Assembly: GCA_018624035.1 (NCBI GenBank)
Contig: JAAZUU010000009.1
Coordinates: forward strand, 1 to 36,612
DNA length: 36,612 nucleotides
Origin: Rhodobiaceae bacterium
Lineage (GTDB): Bacteria; Pseudomonadota; Alphaproteobacteria; Puniceispirillales; Puniceispirillaceae
Direction: 5' to 3'
The notes below the pieces were generated by a model, which was given only the letters and a program-made list of their open reading frames with translations, was not told where the DNA came from and made no database searches. Each line of letters starts with the position of its first letter. The stretch's first letter is position 1. Shown in pieces: positions 6,408 through 33,971 of this stretch. Made by a program: the position numbers and the translations under genes.

Positions 6408-8285
6408 TCAGCCTGTAGAATCCACCATCGACCGGCGAATGATATCGGCAAGGCCGGCCGGGGCGGGACTATCCTTGCCAAGCGCGCCATAGATGGCGTC
6501 CCATCCCGCTCGTTCATGCGCCAGCCGCGCCGCCATTCCGGTCTCGCAGAATGACAGGCAGGCGGCAAGCCGCGACGCGCCCTCACTGACATAGCTGCCG
6601 CCCTTCGCGGCGCCGTCAATGGCAAAGATCAGACCGGCAAGAGGTGCCGGATCCGGCGATATGAAACAGGCGGTGAAGGGCCACAGACGGTCGCGGAGCG
6701 TCTCGAACCCCTGCGGATGAAGCTCCGCATAGCGACTGAAAAGCAGCAATCTCTCGATGTCGCCGATAGCCTTGCCGTCGCTGGCATGCGCGATGGCGCG
6801 GGCGGCAAAAGCCTGCTTGTCATGTCGCATGATCAGCCCTTCGGCATGGAGATGTCCGAGATATTCCGTCTCGCCGAATGCCGATATGGCATAGGCCTGA
6901 TCCTCGGCCCGATTGATGAAGGTCGGGGTGAAGGGCCGCCAGCGGCGAAGCGCGTCGGCGGTAATGCCGGTCGTGCCGCCGGTCACATGAACACGCTGAA
7001 AGCCGGGTGCCCGTTGCAGGATTTCTGCCTCGGTGGAGATCGCCTGCGGCCATTGCGGGCAGAACAGGCGACGCGATGTCAGCGGTGCCGGGAGCGCATC
7101 GGTATCGGGCCGCCTGACATCGGGGATGAACAATCCGTTCGCGGCGTCTGACTCATTGACCAACCCGCCGGCAAGCATGCCCAGATCGACAAGCCTGCCT
7201 TCGTGATCACGCGCCGTGCCACCCCAAAGGGGATTGGCGATGGCCCGCAGGGCGGTGCGCCCGGTATGCGCCTTCAGCGCCGTCTGGTCGAAGATCTGGT
7301 CAAGATCGATTTTGAAGGTGAATGCCGCGCGTGGATTGACCACCATCTGCCAGACAAGAAGAATCACCTTCAGAAAGCTGTAATGCCGGCCATAGGCGCC
7401 ATTCACACCGAGCATATCGGCCGCCGCCGCGTCGCCCGGACACAGGCACCGCGCCATGGCGCGGCACCGGTCCTCGTCAAACAGAAAGACCCGCAAATGC
7501 CGCAAATCCAGATGGCGGGTGATGATGTCCCGCACATAGGCAAACCCCGTTTCCTCCATGCCCGGATGTGTTGCCGAGATCGACATGACGAGATCCATCC
7601 GTGCCGTGGCCGGCAATGTACCGGCTTCGCATTCGGCGGCCAGCGCCCGGTCGAGACTGGCAAGCCCGTAAAGGATCTCGTTTTCCTCCGGCCGCGCATC
7701 GAGCGGGATGGGATGGTCATACCAGAAGGCCTGCCGAGTGTTGGCAAAGCGGCGTCCGGCCGCGCGGTGATCCGCCGGGACATCGGGTGAATCGGGATCG
7801 AGCGGCGGACTGATCAGGGCGTTGGCCGTGAACAGCAGTTCCTCGGCCGGCGCGCGAAGCGGTGCCGATGGCGACGCGATGCCATGCAACCGGCGCCGGC
7901 CACGGATGGTTTCGGCCATATCATCGGGCGCGGCGCTGGCGGCGGCGGCCGGCGGGCAGAAGATTTCCCATGGATGGCGCCGGTCTTCGGGGTCGACGGC
8001 AAGGTCGGCGAGACTGCGTTTCAGAAAGGATGCCAGATGGTGCATCACGGTATCGTCGGGATTGTTGGGTGTCGCGGCTTCGGCCTGTTTCACCAGTGCC
8101 TGTGCCGCCGCGTGATCGGGATGTGTGGCCAGTCCACGAAGCAGCCAGGCACGGCAAAGCCGCGCCTGATCATCAGGCGCCGTGTCAAGGCTGAGCGCCG
8201 GCCAGTCATCGCCGGTCAGCAGCCGGCCGCCCGGCGCGTGAAGGCGGCGTTTGATCCGGTCGGCTGTTTTCCCGGCTTCCGTCAT
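6408..8285 (-). CDS. Large protein of unknown function, possible GT-A-type glycosyltransferase
   Basis: A 625-residue soluble protein with no signal peptide; an AGGGAG ribosome site precedes the ATG at 8285. I do not recognise the family with certainty. The N-terminal ~150 residues are helical and alanine-rich. The middle contains SISATHPGMEETGF (about 235-248), RVFLFDED (about 265-272), NGAYGRHYSFLK (about 295-306) and AFTFKIDLDQIFD (about 321-333). The last segment, a strand ending in Asp-x-Asp, resembles the metal-binding edge of GT-A enzymes, and SATHPG could begin the nucleotide-sugar fold. It lies between gpgS and the LacI-controlled uptake operon, so a role in extending or modifying the glycosylglycerate is plausible but inferred. 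The gene is divergent from the LacI gene and shares its regulatory region. Confidence 0.6.
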   Translation of the reverse strand: MTEAGKTADRIKRRLHAPGGRLLTGDDWPALSLDTAPDDQARLCRAWLLRGLATHPDHAAAQALVKQAEAATPNNPDDTVMHHLASFLKRSLADLAVDPEDRRHPWEIFCPPAAAASAAPDDMAETIRGRRRLHGIASPSAPLRAPAEELLFTANALISPPLDPDSPDVPADHRAAGRRFANTRQAFWYDHPIPLDARPEENEILYGLASLDRALAAECEAGTLPATARMDLVMSISATHPGMEETGFAYVRDIITRHLDLRHLRVFLFDEDRCRAMARCLCPGDAAAADMLGVNGAYGRHYSFLKVILLVWQMVVNPRAAFTFKIDLDQIFDQTALKAHTGRTALRAIANPLWGGTARDHEGRLVDLGMLAGGLVNESDAANGLFIPDVRRPDTDALPAPLTSRRLFCPQWPQAISTEAEILQRAPGFQRVHVTGGTTGITADALRRWRPFTPTFINRAEDQAYAISAFGETEYLGHLHAEGLIMRHDKQAFAARAIAHASDGKAIGDIERLLLFSRYAELHPQGFETLRDRLWPFTACFISPDPAPLAGLIFAIDGAAKGGSYVSEGASRLAACLSFCETGMAARLAHERAGWDAIYGALGKDSPAPAGLADIIRRSMVDSTG

Positions 8286-23734: not shown

Positions 23735-24019
23735 CTAGAGGCGAGTGAGCGCCCGCACGGTCTTGGCTGTCACCATCTCCATCGTCGCCACATCGAAACG
23801 CCTGAAATGTGCTGATTCCAGATGCGCCTCGAACGCGGCGCGGTCATCATAGATCTCATAGAGAAAAATACGGTGCGGTGTGTCGGGGTCCTGACAGACA
23901 TCAAACTGCCGGCATCCGGGTTCCTCTCGCACCGACGCGGCAGCGTTTTCCGCCATCAGTGGCAGGAATGCAGCCAGATGATCGGGTTTGATCTCGAAAT
24001 CGACGATGATCACATACAT
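23735..24019 (-). CDS. ABM-domain (antibiotic biosynthesis monooxygenase-like) protein
   Basis: A 94-residue ferredoxin-like-fold protein. MYVIIVDFEIKPDHLAAFL begins the first strand and helix; EEPGCRQFDVCQDPDTPHRIFLYEIYDDRAAFEAHLESAHF is the typical YgiN/ABM motif order. Members act as small cofactor-free monooxygenases or quinone-handling proteins. The ATG at 24019 has a GGAG site on the minus strand. It follows the dehydrogenase gene by 16 bp, so the two are probably one operon. Confidence 0.85.
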   Translation of the reverse strand: MYVIIVDFEIKPDHLAAFLPLMAENAAASVREEPGCRQFDVCQDPDTPHRIFLYEIYDDRAAFEAHLESAHFRRFDVATMEMVTAKTVRALTRL

Positions 24020-24035
24020 TATCCTGTCTCCAGAA

Positions 24036-29821: not shown

Positions 29822-30082
29822 TCATGCCTTCGGGGTCAGCAGATCACGGCGGTCCGGTCTGACGGCGCGGCCCTCCGGCTCACTGTAATCGACATCCTCA
29901 ACGCCGCAGGAGATGGCGAAACAGGCAAGTGCCACGGCTTTGGGAATTTCAACCGACCTGTCGCTGCGTTTGCCTTTCTCGTAATACTGGATGGTACGAA
30001 TCTTCAGGCCAAGCTTCCGCGCCGCGCCGGTCTGGCTCAGACCATTGGCTTTGCGCCACAGCTTGAATTCCTTTGCATTCAT
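29822..30082 (-). CDS. XRE-family helix-turn-helix regulator, small
   Basis: An 86-residue DNA-binding protein: FKLWRKANGLSQTGAARKLGLKIRTIQYYEKGKR is a standard XRE helix-turn-helix. A short Asp/Arg-rich tail follows. The start is ATG 30082 after GCGGGA; an inverted repeat lies immediately upstream, suggesting autoregulation. It is divergent from the Nudix gene, which it may control, and convergent with ppk2. Confidence 0.83.
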   Translation of the reverse strand: MNAKEFKLWRKANGLSQTGAARKLGLKIRTIQYYEKGKRSDRSVEIPKAVALACFAISCGVEDVDYSEPEGRAVRPDRRDLLTPKA

Positions 30083-30092
30083 CGACCAATCC

Positions 30093-30105
30093 CGCAATAA
30101 TTGCG
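30093..30105. promoter_or_regulatory. Inverted repeat between XRE and Nudix genes
   Basis: CGCAAT-A-ATTGCG is a perfect 6-bp inverted repeat around one base, ending 11 bp upstream of the XRE start codon and overlapping its ribosome-binding region. A TGCGCA palindrome at 30113-30118 lies next to it. This is the expected place for an operator of the XRE protein acting on both divergent genes. Confidence 0.5.
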
Positions 30106-30146
30106 TTTAGTTTGCGCATTTTGTGCATATATCTCAAGGGGTGATC

Positions 30147-30656
30147 ATGAAAGTTGGCGCCATTGCCTATAGAAAGACATCCAGGGGAATTGAAATCTGC
30201 CTTGTCAGCAGCCGACGCCACAAGGGCAAGCTGACCCTTCCAAAGGGTGAGGTGAAACAGGGTGAGACGCTTGTCACGGCGGTAAAGCGCGAATTGTTCG
30301 AGGAGGCCGGCCTGCACGGCAAGGTCAAGCACAGCAAGCGCCCGCTATGCTTTGCGGCAAAGTCGCGGCAACATGATCCGGTGTTCTATTTCCTCGTGAA
30401 GATCACCGATGTGAAGATGAAATGGCCGGAAAAGTCCGAACGGAAGCGCGTCTTCACCAATCTTGCCGGCATGAGCGGCCTGCCGCTTGGCGACGCGCCG
30501 AAATCACTGCTTCGGCAGATGCGACGACTGCCGCTCCTTGCCGATGCGCGCAACAGTGACCAGCCGGCTGAGGATGATGTGGCCGCCAACGACCCCGTGC
30601 CCTTTCACGCCTCTGCCTTCCGGCGCGCCTTTCCCCGCTGGCGTCGCGGGGCCTGA
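30147..30656 (+). CDS. Nudix hydrolase
   Basis: A 169-residue protein with a complete Nudix box at residues 34-56 (G-x5-E-x7-REL-x-EE-x-GL), preceded by the usual strand GAIAYRKTSRGIEICLVSS. Family members cleave nucleoside diphosphates linked to other groups; the diphosphoinositol polyphosphate/diadenosine group has a similar KGKLTLPKGEV entry. The C-terminal ~50 residues are a low-complexity acidic then Arg-rich tail. AAGGGG precedes the ATG at 30147; an in-frame ATG at 30123 lacks such a site. Confidence 0.9.
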   Translation: MKVGAIAYRKTSRGIEICLVSSRRHKGKLTLPKGEVKQGETLVTAVKRELFEEAGLHGKVKHSKRPLCFAAKSRQHDPVFYFLVKITDVKMKWPEKSERKRVFTNLAGMSGLPLGDAPKSLLRQMRRLPLLADARNSDQPAEDDVAANDPVPFHASAFRRAFPRWRRGA

Positions 30657-30692: not shown

Positions 30693-31022
30693 TCAGGAGG
30701 CGGCGTCGATGGCGACCGAGGTGGACATCGCCTCGCGCTCGAATGCAAGGACACAAACGCCGGAAAAACGGCTCTGCTTGAAGACAAAGGCCTGCTTTAT
30801 ATCTTCAAGAAGCATCGGAATTTCCCGTTCGAAATTCGTCATTGGGGTGACGTCTTCAAAGCGGACATTGATGGCAAGTTCGCCTTCCTTGCCGATCGTC
30901 ACATGAAGGCCATGGAAATCGAAAATGCTGATCCGGCTCTTCAGGAGTTCACATAAGGTCTGTGCCGCGATCTTGGCCTCGGCGACGGATGCGAATTTGA
31001 GCTGAAGCTGGGTCGAGAACAC
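30693..31022 (-). CDS. Small protein of unknown family, partner of GAF protein (copy 1)
   Basis: A 109-residue protein not recognised from any named family. It aligns end to end with the product of 32821-33141: shared positions include KF..VAEAK.AA near the start, a central ..I.IGK.G.L.I...FE, and LKQTFV/IKQAFV followed by GV(C/Y)...(F/N)(E/Y)EA near the end. The alternating pattern suggests strand-helix-strand-strand-helix-strand. The GTG at 31022 aligns with the ATG of the second copy and lies 4 bp after the GAF gene stop, so the pair is co-translated. A longer frame to 31118 would overlap the GAF gene and is not conserved. Confidence 0.75.
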   Translation of the reverse strand: MFSTQLQLKFASVAEAKIAAQTLCELLKSRISIFDFHGLHVTIGKEGELAINVRFEDVTPMTNFEREIPMLLEDIKQAFVFKQSRFSGVCVLAFEREAMSTSVAIDAAS

Positions 31023-31026
31023 GGCG

Positions 31027-31917
31027 CTACCCCAACTTTCCCAACAGGTCGTCGACACCCCGGCCCTCGGGTGCGATCGTCTGCTCGCTGCCGCGATAGG
31101 TCTCCGGCGCCAGCCCAAGGGCGGCCCGCAAATCAGTGCCGTCGCGTGTCAGTCGCCAGTCACCAGCCTCGCTGGCAATGATGGCGTCGGCGGCCAGCAT
31201 GTCCATTGTCGCCGCAGGAGCTGTGCCACGGGCGCAGAAATCAAGAAACCCCATCAGCTCATCAAGCGTGCCATCGGGCGCGAATTGCCTGAATTTTGCC
31301 AACATGCCGACGATCCGCGAGGCTGTCAGCGAACTCTGCTCGGTCATCAGCTGGATCTGCGCCGCCGCTGTTGTCGCCAGTTTGGTCATGAGTCTCAGCT
31401 GCTCTTCATTCGGGGACAATGGCGTTGGATGCGTGCCGCACAACGTGCCAAGCACAACGCCATCGGGTGTGTTCAGCGGAAACCCGGCATAAAAGCCGCA
31501 ATTCAGAGGTGGCTTGGTCAGAGCCGATCCGGCAAAGCGCTCGTCACGGCTTGTATCCGGGACGATGAACGGTTCCGGCGACAGCAACGCATACTGGCAG
31601 AACGTCAGATCCTGCGGCACGCCAAGCAACGGGTCATATCCCTTGCCAGCGCCGCCAATGGTGTATTGGCAGGCCCCGTCAAGCAGGTTGACCATCCCCG
31701 TCTCGCAGCCAAGGATTGTCTTGGCGATCTCGGCGAAAATCTCGAACTGGCGCGATACATCACGGCCAATCAGCCCGGTTTCACTGACGCGGGCGGCGCG
31801 CAGGGTCTCGTTCTGCGGTTTTGGCGCGGGCGGGACCTTCTGCGAGGTCGCCATCGCGTATCCGAGCTTGAGAAAATTACCCAGGCCCTCGGCCTTTATG
31901 GCGCGTCGAAGAGACAT
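31027..31917 (-). CDS. GAF-domain protein with conserved C-terminal region (copy 1)
   Basis: A 296-residue cytoplasmic sensor-like protein. After a ~40-residue variable leader the GAF domain spans about 45-205 (FEIFAEIAKTILGCETGMVNLLDG, FCQYALLSPEPFIVPDTSRDERF, CGFYAGFPLNTPDGVVLGTLCGTHP, SPNEEQLRLMTKLATTAAAQIQL). The remaining ~90 residues share pattern with the product of 33144-33971, including a possible winged-helix segment (LAADAIIASEAGDWRLTRDG) and an acidic/hydrophobic tail ending LLGKLG. No kinase, cyclase or phosphodiesterase domain is attached, so the output must pass through a partner, most simply the small protein encoded next. ATG 31917 follows GCAGGA. Confidence 0.8.
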   Translation of the reverse strand: MSLRRAIKAEGLGNFLKLGYAMATSQKVPPAPKPQNETLRAARVSETGLIGRDVSRQFEIFAEIAKTILGCETGMVNLLDGACQYTIGGAGKGYDPLLGVPQDLTFCQYALLSPEPFIVPDTSRDERFAGSALTKPPLNCGFYAGFPLNTPDGVVLGTLCGTHPTPLSPNEEQLRLMTKLATTAAAQIQLMTEQSSLTASRIVGMLAKFRQFAPDGTLDELMGFLDFCARGTAPAATMDMLAADAIIASEAGDWRLTRDGTDLRAALGLAPETYRGSEQTIAPEGRGVDDLLGKLG

Positions 31918-32009
31918 CACAAAATCCTGCCATACTCACAATCCAAGTGTCAGCCGAAGCCGCGGATAAGTCCAGTGGCGTGTCGCCGCGGCACCGGTTT
32001 GCCGCTGTG

Positions 32010-32432
32010 CTAGATGGAAAAGGCAACTGCGGCGGCAATGATGGCCAACGCGATGCCACCCCGCCCCAGCTGCATGAGCCGCTTCATCAATGCGGCGTTG
32101 GGGGGGCGCTTTGCCTTCATCGCGCCATGCACATGGATGTTGCCGAACAGTGACACGCCAAGGATGATCGCCGCACCAAGGAGCTTGGCGTGAAACGCGC
32201 CATTGATGGCAAGCCCTCCATAAAGCAGATGCGCCAGTCCGATGCCGGTGATCCACAGAGTCAGGATCGAGCCAAGCCCGATATAGCCGAGCAGGGCGAA
32301 GGCCTTGCCGACATGCGGCGGTGGCACCTCGCCGGCGCGGACATAGGCTGACTGCATGATGGTGCTGCCGACTGTGACACCGCCAGCAAACAGGATCGCG
32401 AAATAATGCAGGATCTTCAGACCAATTTCCAT
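32010..32432 (-). CDS. Small four-helix membrane protein between the two GAF modules
   Basis: A 140-residue inner-membrane protein with about four hydrophobic helices: LKILHYFAILFAGGVTVGSTIM, AFALLGYIGLGSILTLWITGIGLAHLL, AKLLGAAIILGVSLFGNIHVHGAM and GGIALAIIAAAVAFSI. It resembles small DUF2269-like or copper-resistance-type membrane proteins only in outline. The His residues in helices 1 and 3 could bind metal or haem, but this is speculative. The start is ATG 32432 with a GGAGGT site; upstream in-frame starts at 32447 and 32519 are weaker. It has the same direction as both GAF modules and lies 92 bp before copy 1. Confidence 0.72.
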   Translation of the reverse strand: MEIGLKILHYFAILFAGGVTVGSTIMQSAYVRAGEVPPPHVGKAFALLGYIGLGSILTLWITGIGLAHLLYGGLAINGAFHAKLLGAAIILGVSLFGNIHVHGAMKAKRPPNAALMKRLMQLGRGGIALAIIAAAVAFSI

Positions 32433-32519
32433 GATACCCACCTCCATGGCCAGCTGTTGATATATGCCGACCCTGTCGACAAACCCGATCCTAGCATGGA
32501 TTGCATGTCGGTTTTCCAC

Positions 32520-32820
32520 TCAAGTCAGGATTGATGCGAATCCTTGCCCGCCCGGCGTCGTTCAGTCAATCGTGACAGTCTTTGGCATGTTGGGCGTGCC
32601 TCTTTCCAGGGCCAGCCGGCGACAGCATGGCCCGATGGGTCCGCGATCTGCTGCCACGGCTCCACCTGACCGGACGCCGGCGGTCCGCCGGATCATCACG
32701 CCGTGACGGGCCGGTCATTCAACCGGGCCCGCCAAATCAACACGGCCCGTTAAATCAACACGGCAAAGAGCCGACTATACAATGCCGGGCAGGATTGCTG
32801 ACTGCCGGCACCGTGGAAAG
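32520..32820. other. Gap between GAF module copy 2 and the membrane-protein gene
   Basis: About 390 bp without a supported gene separate the small-protein stop at 32821 from the membrane-protein start at 32432. It holds an 18-bp two-copy repeat (32728-32763) and presumably the promoter of the membrane-protein gene. Frames crossing it are Pro/Arg-rich and lack ribosome sites. Confidence 0.5.
32728..32763. repeat. 18-bp tandem duplication in the GAF region
   Basis: CCCGCCAAATCAACACGG and CCCGTTAAATCAACACGG, two adjacent 18-bp units identical at 16 positions. A third, more diverged unit may precede them (32710-32727). The unit size equals that of the repeat at 15951-15993, but the sequence is unrelated. 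Confidence 0.75.
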
Positions 32821-33141
32821 TCAGTTTGCGGCGACTTCCGCCTTGATGGCCTCGGCCTCGTAATTGAAGATATAGACGCCGGCGTAGTTGTCTTCCTTGT
32901 AGACAAAGGTCTGTTTGAGGTCCGCGAACACTTCGGCGGCTTTCACCTCAAAGCGTTTCAGATCGTCACTGGACTCGAACTTTGTCTGGATAGACAGGCT
33001 GCCGCACTTGCCGATCGAGATGTTCAGCGAGCGCATGTTGCTGTCGACGATAAGCTTGCCGAACGCATCGGAAATGAAGGATGCGGCGACCTTGGCTTCG
33101 GCGACACCATTGAATTTGAAATTGAAAATTTTCGCAAACAT
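32821..33141 (-). CDS. Small protein of unknown family, partner of GAF protein (copy 2)
   Basis: A 106-residue protein, paralogue of the product of 30693-31022. It begins MFAKIFNFKFNGVAEAKVAA, matching VFSTQLQLKFASVAEAKIAA of copy 1 at many positions, and continues with ISIGKCGSLSIQTKFESSDDLKRFE and LKQTFVYKEDNYAGVYIFNYEAEAI. The ATG is 2 bp after the stop of the upstream GAF gene, so the pair is translationally coupled. No signal peptide or membrane segment is present. No named family is recognised; the fold may be a small alpha/beta sandwich. Confidence 0.8.
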   Translation of the reverse strand: MFAKIFNFKFNGVAEAKVAASFISDAFGKLIVDSNMRSLNISIGKCGSLSIQTKFESSDDLKRFEVKAAEVFADLKQTFVYKEDNYAGVYIFNYEAEAIKAEVAAN

Positions 33142-33143
33142 GG

Positions 33144-33971
33144 TCAGTCAATCTCCGCAAACATCTCGTCCAGCAGGGCCTCGGCCTCACCGCCATCCAT
33201 CTTGATCCGCTTCATCGCCTTTTGCTGAAGGTTCATGTCGAATTGCAGTCGGCGTCCGGATTCTGTCATCTGGACCCGGCCGGCATCATCAACCTCGGCA
33301 AGGCCGACCCGAATGATTCCCGCCGCATCATCGGCTGACACATTCAGCTCGGAGCAGAGCGACACATACATCTTGAAGTCGTCAAGGCCGAAGCGCTCAT
33401 CAACCTTCTGGAAATGCGCCAGCGCGTCAAGCATGCGCTGCGATGTCAGTTCCTTCTGCTTGATCTGCAGATCAAGCATATGCGCTATGCTGTTGGTGAT
33501 CTTCTTGATCTGCGTGACCTGCTCGTCATTCAATCCCTTGGGCCCGCTCGGATTCAGCATGCACAGCGTGCCAAGCGCGAAATTCTCGCTGTTGATCACC
33601 GGAAAGCCGGCATAGCCGGGGCCCTGTTCCATGCCCTGCAGGTTCGGATGGTCCTTCCAGGTGGGATCCTTGAGCATGTCCTCCATAAGCAGGGGCTCGG
33701 TATCAAGGAGCACATAGGCACATACATTCAACTCGCTCCGTTCGGATTTTGAACCCGGTACGAAATCATCATTGCCGGCCTCGGCGATCGAACATTTCAT
33801 CTCGCCGTCATAGAGGCTGAAAGTGGCTGTCTCGAAGCCGGTGATGTCCTTGGCCAGATCGCAATAGATCTGGAACAGATCGGGGTTGGGCGCATCGATC
33901 AGTCCCGTCTTCACGACGGTCTGCGCGCGCAAATCCTCATTCGCTGGGCGGGGTGCCAGACCCATATTCAT
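33144..33971 (-). CDS. GAF-domain protein with conserved C-terminal region (copy 2)
   Basis: A 275-residue protein with the same layout as copy 1: GAF domain at about 25-180 (LFQIYCDLAKDITGFETATFSLYDG, CAYVLLDTEPLLMEDMLKDPTW, GYAGFPVINSENFALGTLCMLNP, LNDEQVTQIKKITNSIAHMLDLQ), then RMLDALAHFQKVDERFGLDDF and a possible winged-helix segment (SADDAAGIIRVGLAEVDDAGRVQMTESG) and an acidic tail EALLDEMFAEID. A perfect AAGGAGGT site precedes ATG 33971, implying strong translation. The long frame upstream to 34337 is not used. The ligand of the GAF domain is unknown. Confidence 0.85.
   Translation of the reverse strand: MNMGLAPRPANEDLRAQTVVKTGLIDAPNPDLFQIYCDLAKDITGFETATFSLYDGEMKCSIAEAGNDDFVPGSKSERSELNVCAYVLLDTEPLLMEDMLKDPTWKDHPNLQGMEQGPGYAGFPVINSENFALGTLCMLNPSGPKGLNDEQVTQIKKITNSIAHMLDLQIKQKELTSQRMLDALAHFQKVDERFGLDDFKMYVSLCSELNVSADDAAGIIRVGLAEVDDAGRVQMTESGRRLQFDMNLQQKAMKRIKMDGGEAEALLDEMFAEID

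Follow-up and report, generated by a model that had tools for sequence, protein, structure and literature searches.

A 36,612-nucleotide stretch of DNA from a Rhodobiaceae bacterium (contig JAAZUU010000009.1, here called the window) carries two gene pairs in which a gene for a GAF-domain protein is followed by one for a small protein, and the question raised by this locus is whether the two products act together and, if so, how. The genes could merely be neighbors that are inherited side by side. Alternatively, they may constitute one undescribed two-protein signaling module, in which a GAF sensor has a fixed small partner. We lean toward the latter, with the mechanism proposed below, without holding it firmly; its strongest support is the tight linkage of the two genes, which does not depend on their genomic context.

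Both pairs lie on the minus strand. In pair B, the gene for GAF protein B (positions 33144-33971; 275 residues) is followed after 2 bp by that for small protein B (32821-33141; 106 residues); in pair A, the gene for GAF protein A (31027-31917; 296 residues from the ATG or 297 from an upstream GTG) is followed after 4 bp by that for small protein A (30693-31022; 109 residues, GTG start). The common strand, the order and the spacing of 2 to 4 bp are as the initial annotation of the window described them. Between the pairs themselves lie about 0.9 kb (31920 to 32821), not 1.8 kb, which is the distance from small gene to small gene. As that annotation also held, the small proteins are paralogs over their full length (33% identity over 106 residues without gaps; E = 1e-21) and the two GAF proteins are related (32% identity over 209 residues; E = 7e-31). 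Types A and B fall into groups of their own, and in each of these several genera are represented; the two pairs are therefore old paralogs. Recent tandem duplication was ruled out, as the identity of 33% between small proteins A and B is below the 52-90% seen among type B relatives in other genera (g2, g4, and g7). The source genome contains no further convincing copy of either gene; the search for additional copies returned one chance-level match only (E = 0.39).

The initial annotation had suggested that homologs be searched for an adjacent GAF gene, and the outcome supports the pairing. A GAF gene lies directly upstream on the same strand, at a distance of -1 to +14 bp (most commonly -1 or +2 bp), for 147 of 149 distinct small-gene copies. 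This count draws on 150 listed of the 158 matches in the order Puniceispirillales, plus those of two genomes outside it (G276 and G239); copies were considered distinct according to the small protein plus the last 150 residues of the GAF protein, with window duplicates removed, and one of 150 counted copies (L064_3217) was excluded because it is pair B of the window itself, truncated where the locus ends. When the last 100 GAF residues serve as the key, the ratio is 145/147. Both exceptions are incomplete loci: at L185 only 66 bases of contig precede the small gene, and L186 is a truncated remnant missing the GAF gene and the first third of the small gene. The two families also co-occur. At E ≤ 1e-20, 92 of the 136 genomes of the order have a match to a GAF profile (154 matches, 150 of them listed); the set is that of the small protein except for G070, in which the small-protein match is weak. 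The small-protein and GAF trees agree across 142 pairs (r = 0.89; the highest of 500 permutations gave 0.095). The surroundings of the genes vary between clades while the pair remains constant, as judged by clustering the neighbors in 50 stretches, some of which overlap or share a contig; these neighbors were clustered rather than annotated. The GAF gene was found in 50/50 stretches and the small gene in 48/50, the two absences (the window and L042, both of which do carry it) being annotation losses due to ORF (open reading frame) choice. The next most common cluster, which by eye looks like an ABC-type ATPase, occurs in 10/50 stretches at varying places, and all remaining clusters occur in at most 6; no conserved wider operon was seen.

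According to our samples, the pair is mainly a feature of SAR116 (Puniceispirillales), the group to which the source genome of the window belongs, with rare linked relatives elsewhere in the Alphaproteobacteria. The small protein is present in 34/61 genomes of the family sample and in 93/136 of the order sample, the 158 matches of the latter being counted from a per-genome table; the maximum, four copies of each gene, is reached in two genomes of family f3 (G101 and G108). Among 385 genomes of the class, two strong small-protein matches lie outside the order (G276 and G239), and two further matches at E = 0.006-0.008 were taken as chance. The phylum sample (398 genomes) gave no convincing small-protein match beyond the window, with one match at E = 0.007 taken as chance, and a wider search of genome contigs yielded 17 loci. 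The distant relatives outside the order (G276, G239, and G881) retain the GAF-small arrangement, and in L209, a third relative found later, the small gene likewise follows a GAF gene. SAR116 ranks among the most abundant groups of heterotrophs in the surface ocean, according to one report (PMC8547437); a module that is often multicopy and was rarely found elsewhere could be a main route of metabolite sensing in these cells. At L039 (2821-3138), a record titled Gammaproteobacteria, probably mislabeled or a mixed bin, also holds a small gene with 89% identity to small B.

What, then, might the GAF protein contribute? Pfam GAF models (PF01590/PF13185) are the only domains matched above cut-off in GAF A (GAF, 50.6 bits against a cut-off of 22.4) and GAF B (GAF_2, 38.1 bits against 28.6). 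The description of the GAF protein as lacking an output enzyme is upheld insofar as Pfam matched no enzyme domain in either protein, yet it is more than a bare GAF domain. In the AlphaFold2 model of GAF B (mean predicted local distance difference test score [pLDDT], 84), the GAF domain (~30-170) runs into a long helix (149-190), followed by a winged helix-turn-helix (wHTH)-like region (191-246), a linker (~246-259) and a C-terminal helix (260-274); residues 252-264 and 273-275 score below 50, and the linker and the first residues of the end helix are accordingly of low confidence. GAF_2 is matched at E ≤ 1 by 28 of 29 diverse family members, and the GAF fold was recovered by structure comparison, with 4mn7 among the neighbors of the model; the VIA neighbor listing spans residues 1-175, the wHTH part lying outside it. 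Eight residues are invariant among the 29 proteins (R15, C84, P93, Y120, F123, P124, G134, and C137). Free methionine-R-sulfoxide reductase is a GAF enzyme with catalytic cysteines; as to the two invariant cysteines here, C84 and C137, DcsBis, a diguanylate cyclase discussed below, also has cysteines at these places. The end helix is a hydrophobic and acidic motif (LLDEMFAEI, VDDLLGKL, LIDNALDKL, and LMNMLDQI); GAF A, which also has an N-terminal extension, ends in GVDDLLGKLG. In a leave-one-out test, 98% of 43 representative tails scored above the 95th percentile of the C termini of 464 other ORFs, while the distant L092 fitted the motif poorly. With its stalk helix, its wHTH-like region and its conserved tail, the GAF protein may carry an output surface of its own.

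The small protein, which had been annotated as belonging to no known family, indeed has no named match above cut-off in Pfam, NCBIfam, PHROGs or PADLOC. Small B is modeled by AlphaFold2 as β-α-β-β-α-β (mean pLDDT, 79), and both this order and its structural neighbors predict a fold of the ABM-like, or ferredoxin-like, dimeric α/β-barrel superfamily. In an alignment of 15 sequences, F10, A16, K17, A19, F55, E65, and E97 are invariant. The window also encodes, next to an isocitrate/isopropylmalate dehydrogenase gene, a true ABM protein (23735-24022; PF03992, E = 3.4e-24); comparison with hhalign found no profile similarity between it and the small proteins.

Under the mechanism that we propose, the GAF protein would act as the sensor subunit: its GAF domain would form a homodimer like that of DcsBis and would accommodate a small hydrophobic ligand in a pocket. 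From the C-terminal helix of the GAF domain, the chain would continue through the stalk into a wHTH-like region that does not look DNA binding, then through a short basic linker to a tethered, acidic, amphipathic end helix. The small protein would be the fixed, cotranslated partner, a homodimeric ferredoxin-like (ABM-type) barrel whose task would be binding or scaffolding and not catalysis. When the GAF domain binds its ligand, the stalk would change, and so would the degree to which the C-terminal helix is exposed; in this way the complex formed with the small protein, and how that complex contacts a downstream target, would be altered. We infer the physical complex, the dimer states, the nonenzymatic role and the direction of signal flow; as to which ligand and which target are involved, our suggestions are guesses. 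Linkage, co-occurrence and shared inheritance lend good support to the general expectation of the initial annotation that the products of a pair cooperate; its example, a ligand-sensing subunit with an effector, is a possible division of roles.

Several observations weigh against the proposed module. The small gene is absent from 43 of the 136 genomes of the order, and the module is therefore dispensable. Matches to the small protein outnumber those to the GAF protein in nine genomes (G069, G070, G093, G106, G112, G114, G117, G118, and G121), and the reverse is true in five (G015, G067, G097, G120, and G122); this comparison, in which 14 genomes differ, rests on per-genome counts and not on places, and there may be lone genes or fragments beyond those seen. 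One solitary intact GAF gene, with the C-terminal tail kept, a convergent downstream gene and no adjoining small gene, is present in G015 (L210, 4001-4822), a genome that has a full pair elsewhere; in G067 and G122, the excess GAF gene runs off the end of the contig. In G026, the small gene (L020, 1501-1818) is broken by an in-frame TAA, and the GAF gene upstream is intact. Congruence of the two trees is expected of neighbors that share a history and is no evidence of binding. Finally, residues 87-106 of the small B model, a segment that includes the conserved G88 and E97, score below 50 in pLDDT.

How well do other explanations account for these data? Vertical inheritance alone can hold neighboring genes together within a genus, and the pair could thus be a case of co-inheritance with no functional interplay; we regard this as very improbable, given that the pair stays intact across several paralog groups, in differing surroundings and in other alphaproteobacterial lineages. 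An unlikely but more serious alternative is that the GAF protein, with its GAF and wHTH parts, regulates transcription by binding DNA and that the small protein is its cofactor. The GAF B model does show a wHTH-like order of secondary structure after the GAF stalk (helices 196-206 and 217-221, strands 225-227 and 233-235, and helix 237-245). Yet across 142 proteins the position of the recognition helix, placed from one model, has a mean net charge of -0.9 with a mean of 1.2 Lys/Arg, the whole region has a net charge of -2.2, and its mean column entropy is the highest of six parts compared; such weak conservation, together with the lack of basic charge where the recognition helix would lie, speaks against DNA binding. 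Moreover, Pfam HTH models matched single members only among the 29 GAF proteins (E = 0.058 and 0.086), with none below E = 0.05. A third reading, to which we give slightly less credence than to the regulator, makes the small protein an ABM-type enzyme that produces or removes the GAF ligand. The predicted fold fits, and LsrG, YgiN, SnoaB, and ActVA-Orf6 are among the structural neighbors, but the small proteins have no Pfam ABM match, and their invariant set lacks His, Asn, Tyr, and Trp of the kind that ABM enzymes use in catalysis.

Of about the same low probability as the enzyme, if not a shade lower, is a role of the module in controlling the flagellar motor or a motility-related receiver without a chemoreceptor array, with the acidic C-terminal helix of the GAF protein engaging a partner of the FliM N terminus or the neighborhood of FliM. 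SAR116 genomes have flagellar genes without a detected chemotaxis array: FliM was found in 94/136 genomes of the order and CheW in 0/136 at E ≤ 1e-5 (controls positive, 7/14), while GGDEF was found in 0/61. FliM occurs in 69 of 93 pair-bearing genomes, against 71.3 expected from completeness if it were universal, and in 25 of 41 pair-free genomes, against 35.9 expected, with two pair-free, FliM-free genomes of unlisted completeness omitted. Among 43 good genomes, FliM is present in 16/18 with the pair and 14/25 without it (Fisher P = 0.04), and of the genomes at least 90% complete that lack a FliM match, eleven are pair free and two pair bearing. These statistics, however, ignore phylogeny and genome size; the latter two genomes, G005 (99% complete) and G106 (90%), have pairs without a FliM match, and FliM also occurs, with its N-terminal segment kept, in pair-free genomes (G056, G020, and G124). 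The C-terminal peptide of CheZ and the N-terminal peptide of FliM both bind CheY, and by eye they resemble the GAF tail, each being a short terminal helix, acidic and amphipathic, held by a flexible linker. The FliM N-terminal segment, of type LSSDEVNALIEGL, was kept in 10/10 genomes read, and an EIDALL-like motif marks this N terminus. By profile, however, the resemblance is weak: compared with the N termini of other proteins, the FliM segments rank no better under the tail profile than the top 1.3 to 11.6% (six of ten FliMs scored). A FliM-like identity of the tail was not sustained, and since the profile test is weak, we keep the motility role as a rival of low probability. More doubtful still is the specific version in which array-free cytoplasmic GAF sensors steer or gate the motor: each would bind a metabolite and, with its barrel partner, offer an end helix of FliM or CheZ type either to the switch or to some stand-alone receiver. 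A CheZ function proper was ruled out, PF04344 being found in 0/61 genomes. The contrast between CheW and FliM makes the control of swimming in SAR116 a concrete question, for which the pair is one candidate. In their main text, two comparative SAR116 papers do not mention flagella, motility, chemotaxis or GAF (PMC12262181 and PMC8547437). Metagenome contigs with motility and chemotaxis genes are enriched in groups including SAR116, according to a third report (PMC6040077); because its category joins flagella and chemotaxis, this neither supports nor clearly contradicts the CheW result.

The possibility that the two-protein module is phage or plasmid cargo was rejected: small protein B was not found in plasmids and the small-protein alignment matched no viral contig. 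GAF A has one half-length match (31.6% identity) in an unannotated 5.8-kb phage record, and both GAF proteins match PHROG 14602 (function unknown), presumably via the GAF domain. None of the four module proteins matched a PADLOC defense system at E ≤ 1; with this and the absence of a mobile distribution (plasmids and viral contigs), a toxin-antitoxin or antiphage defense pair was likewise set aside.

Other features of the window lie around the pairs. The ORF between them (32010-32432, minus strand, 140 residues), upstream of GAF A, has no Pfam match and is probably outside the module; its family also precedes pair A in L036, L059, and L060 (L036 and L060 being the same contig) and is absent from the other stretches compared. 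Downstream of small B is a tandem repeat (32726-32764) of 2.2 copies of an 18-base unit. Adjoining the module, a gene for a small HTH_3 protein and a NUDIX gene are divergent (29822-30097 and 30123-30656). Farther away, an ORF of 625 residues (minus strand, 6408-8285) had no Pfam match at E = 0.001; it could be either a genuine gene of unknown family or a frame that arose by chance.

Which known systems does the module resemble? For the small protein, the best Foldseek match is 2op5 (E = 2.8e-5; TM-score, 0.72), a "dimeric ferredoxin-like protein" of similar length and unknown function from an uncultured marine organism (Global Ocean Sampling family). This entry is named as one of five structures from novel metagenome families (PMC2557142). 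It shares only 14% identity with small B and has no sequence match to the small proteins, and it falls outside the best 50 VIA-align entries. ABM (PF03992) and the related barrels PA0709, 2od4, LsrG, and YgiN have the same fold order as small B (Z = 9.8 to 11.5; root mean square deviation, 2.0 to 2.5), whereas Pfam ABM matches neither small A, small B nor any of 24 family members. For the GAF protein, the nearest solved structure is DcsBis (PA2771; PDB 4zmu), a GAF-GGDEF diguanylate cyclase. The likeness covers the GAF domain and its N-terminal segment: the GAF-family profile matches at E = 1.4e-30, GAF A matches 4zmu at E = 2.4e-20 with the FC, FYAG, and GTLC stretches aligned, and the GAF B model superposes with Z = 19.5 and a root mean square deviation of 2.4 over 163 residues at 29% identity. 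DcsBis is reported to dimerize via its GAF domain, to have a large hydrophobic pocket and to bind neither cyclic AMP nor cyclic GMP (PMC4937426). Coupling to cyclic di-GMP, as DcsBis might suggest, was rejected as unlikely: a search of 61 genomes (the source and 60 relatives) for GGDEF proteins came back empty at E ≤ 1e-10 (controls positive, 8/14); by Pfam, no GGDEF domain is present in GAF A, GAF B or the 29 GAF family members. In keeping with the view that the arrangement is undescribed, which the initial annotation had already voiced, our literature search found no paper linking SAR116, or the label "dimeric ferredoxin-like," with GAF domains; papers that turned up for ABM enzymes and for stand-alone GAF proteins dealt with proteomics, and with fluorescent proteins and a cyanobacteriochrome, respectively. 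GAF sensors and ABM-type folds are already known; what appears undescribed in the literature searched is that the two form a fixed pair, that the GAF protein has additional regions and that the module is so restricted in distribution. Unlike DcsBis, the GAF protein of the module lacks GGDEF and carries instead a wHTH-like region and an end helix, and it comes with a small partner encoded separately; a DcsBis-type GAF domain is thus used without GGDEF output, and an unannotated barrel protein gains a genomic partner.

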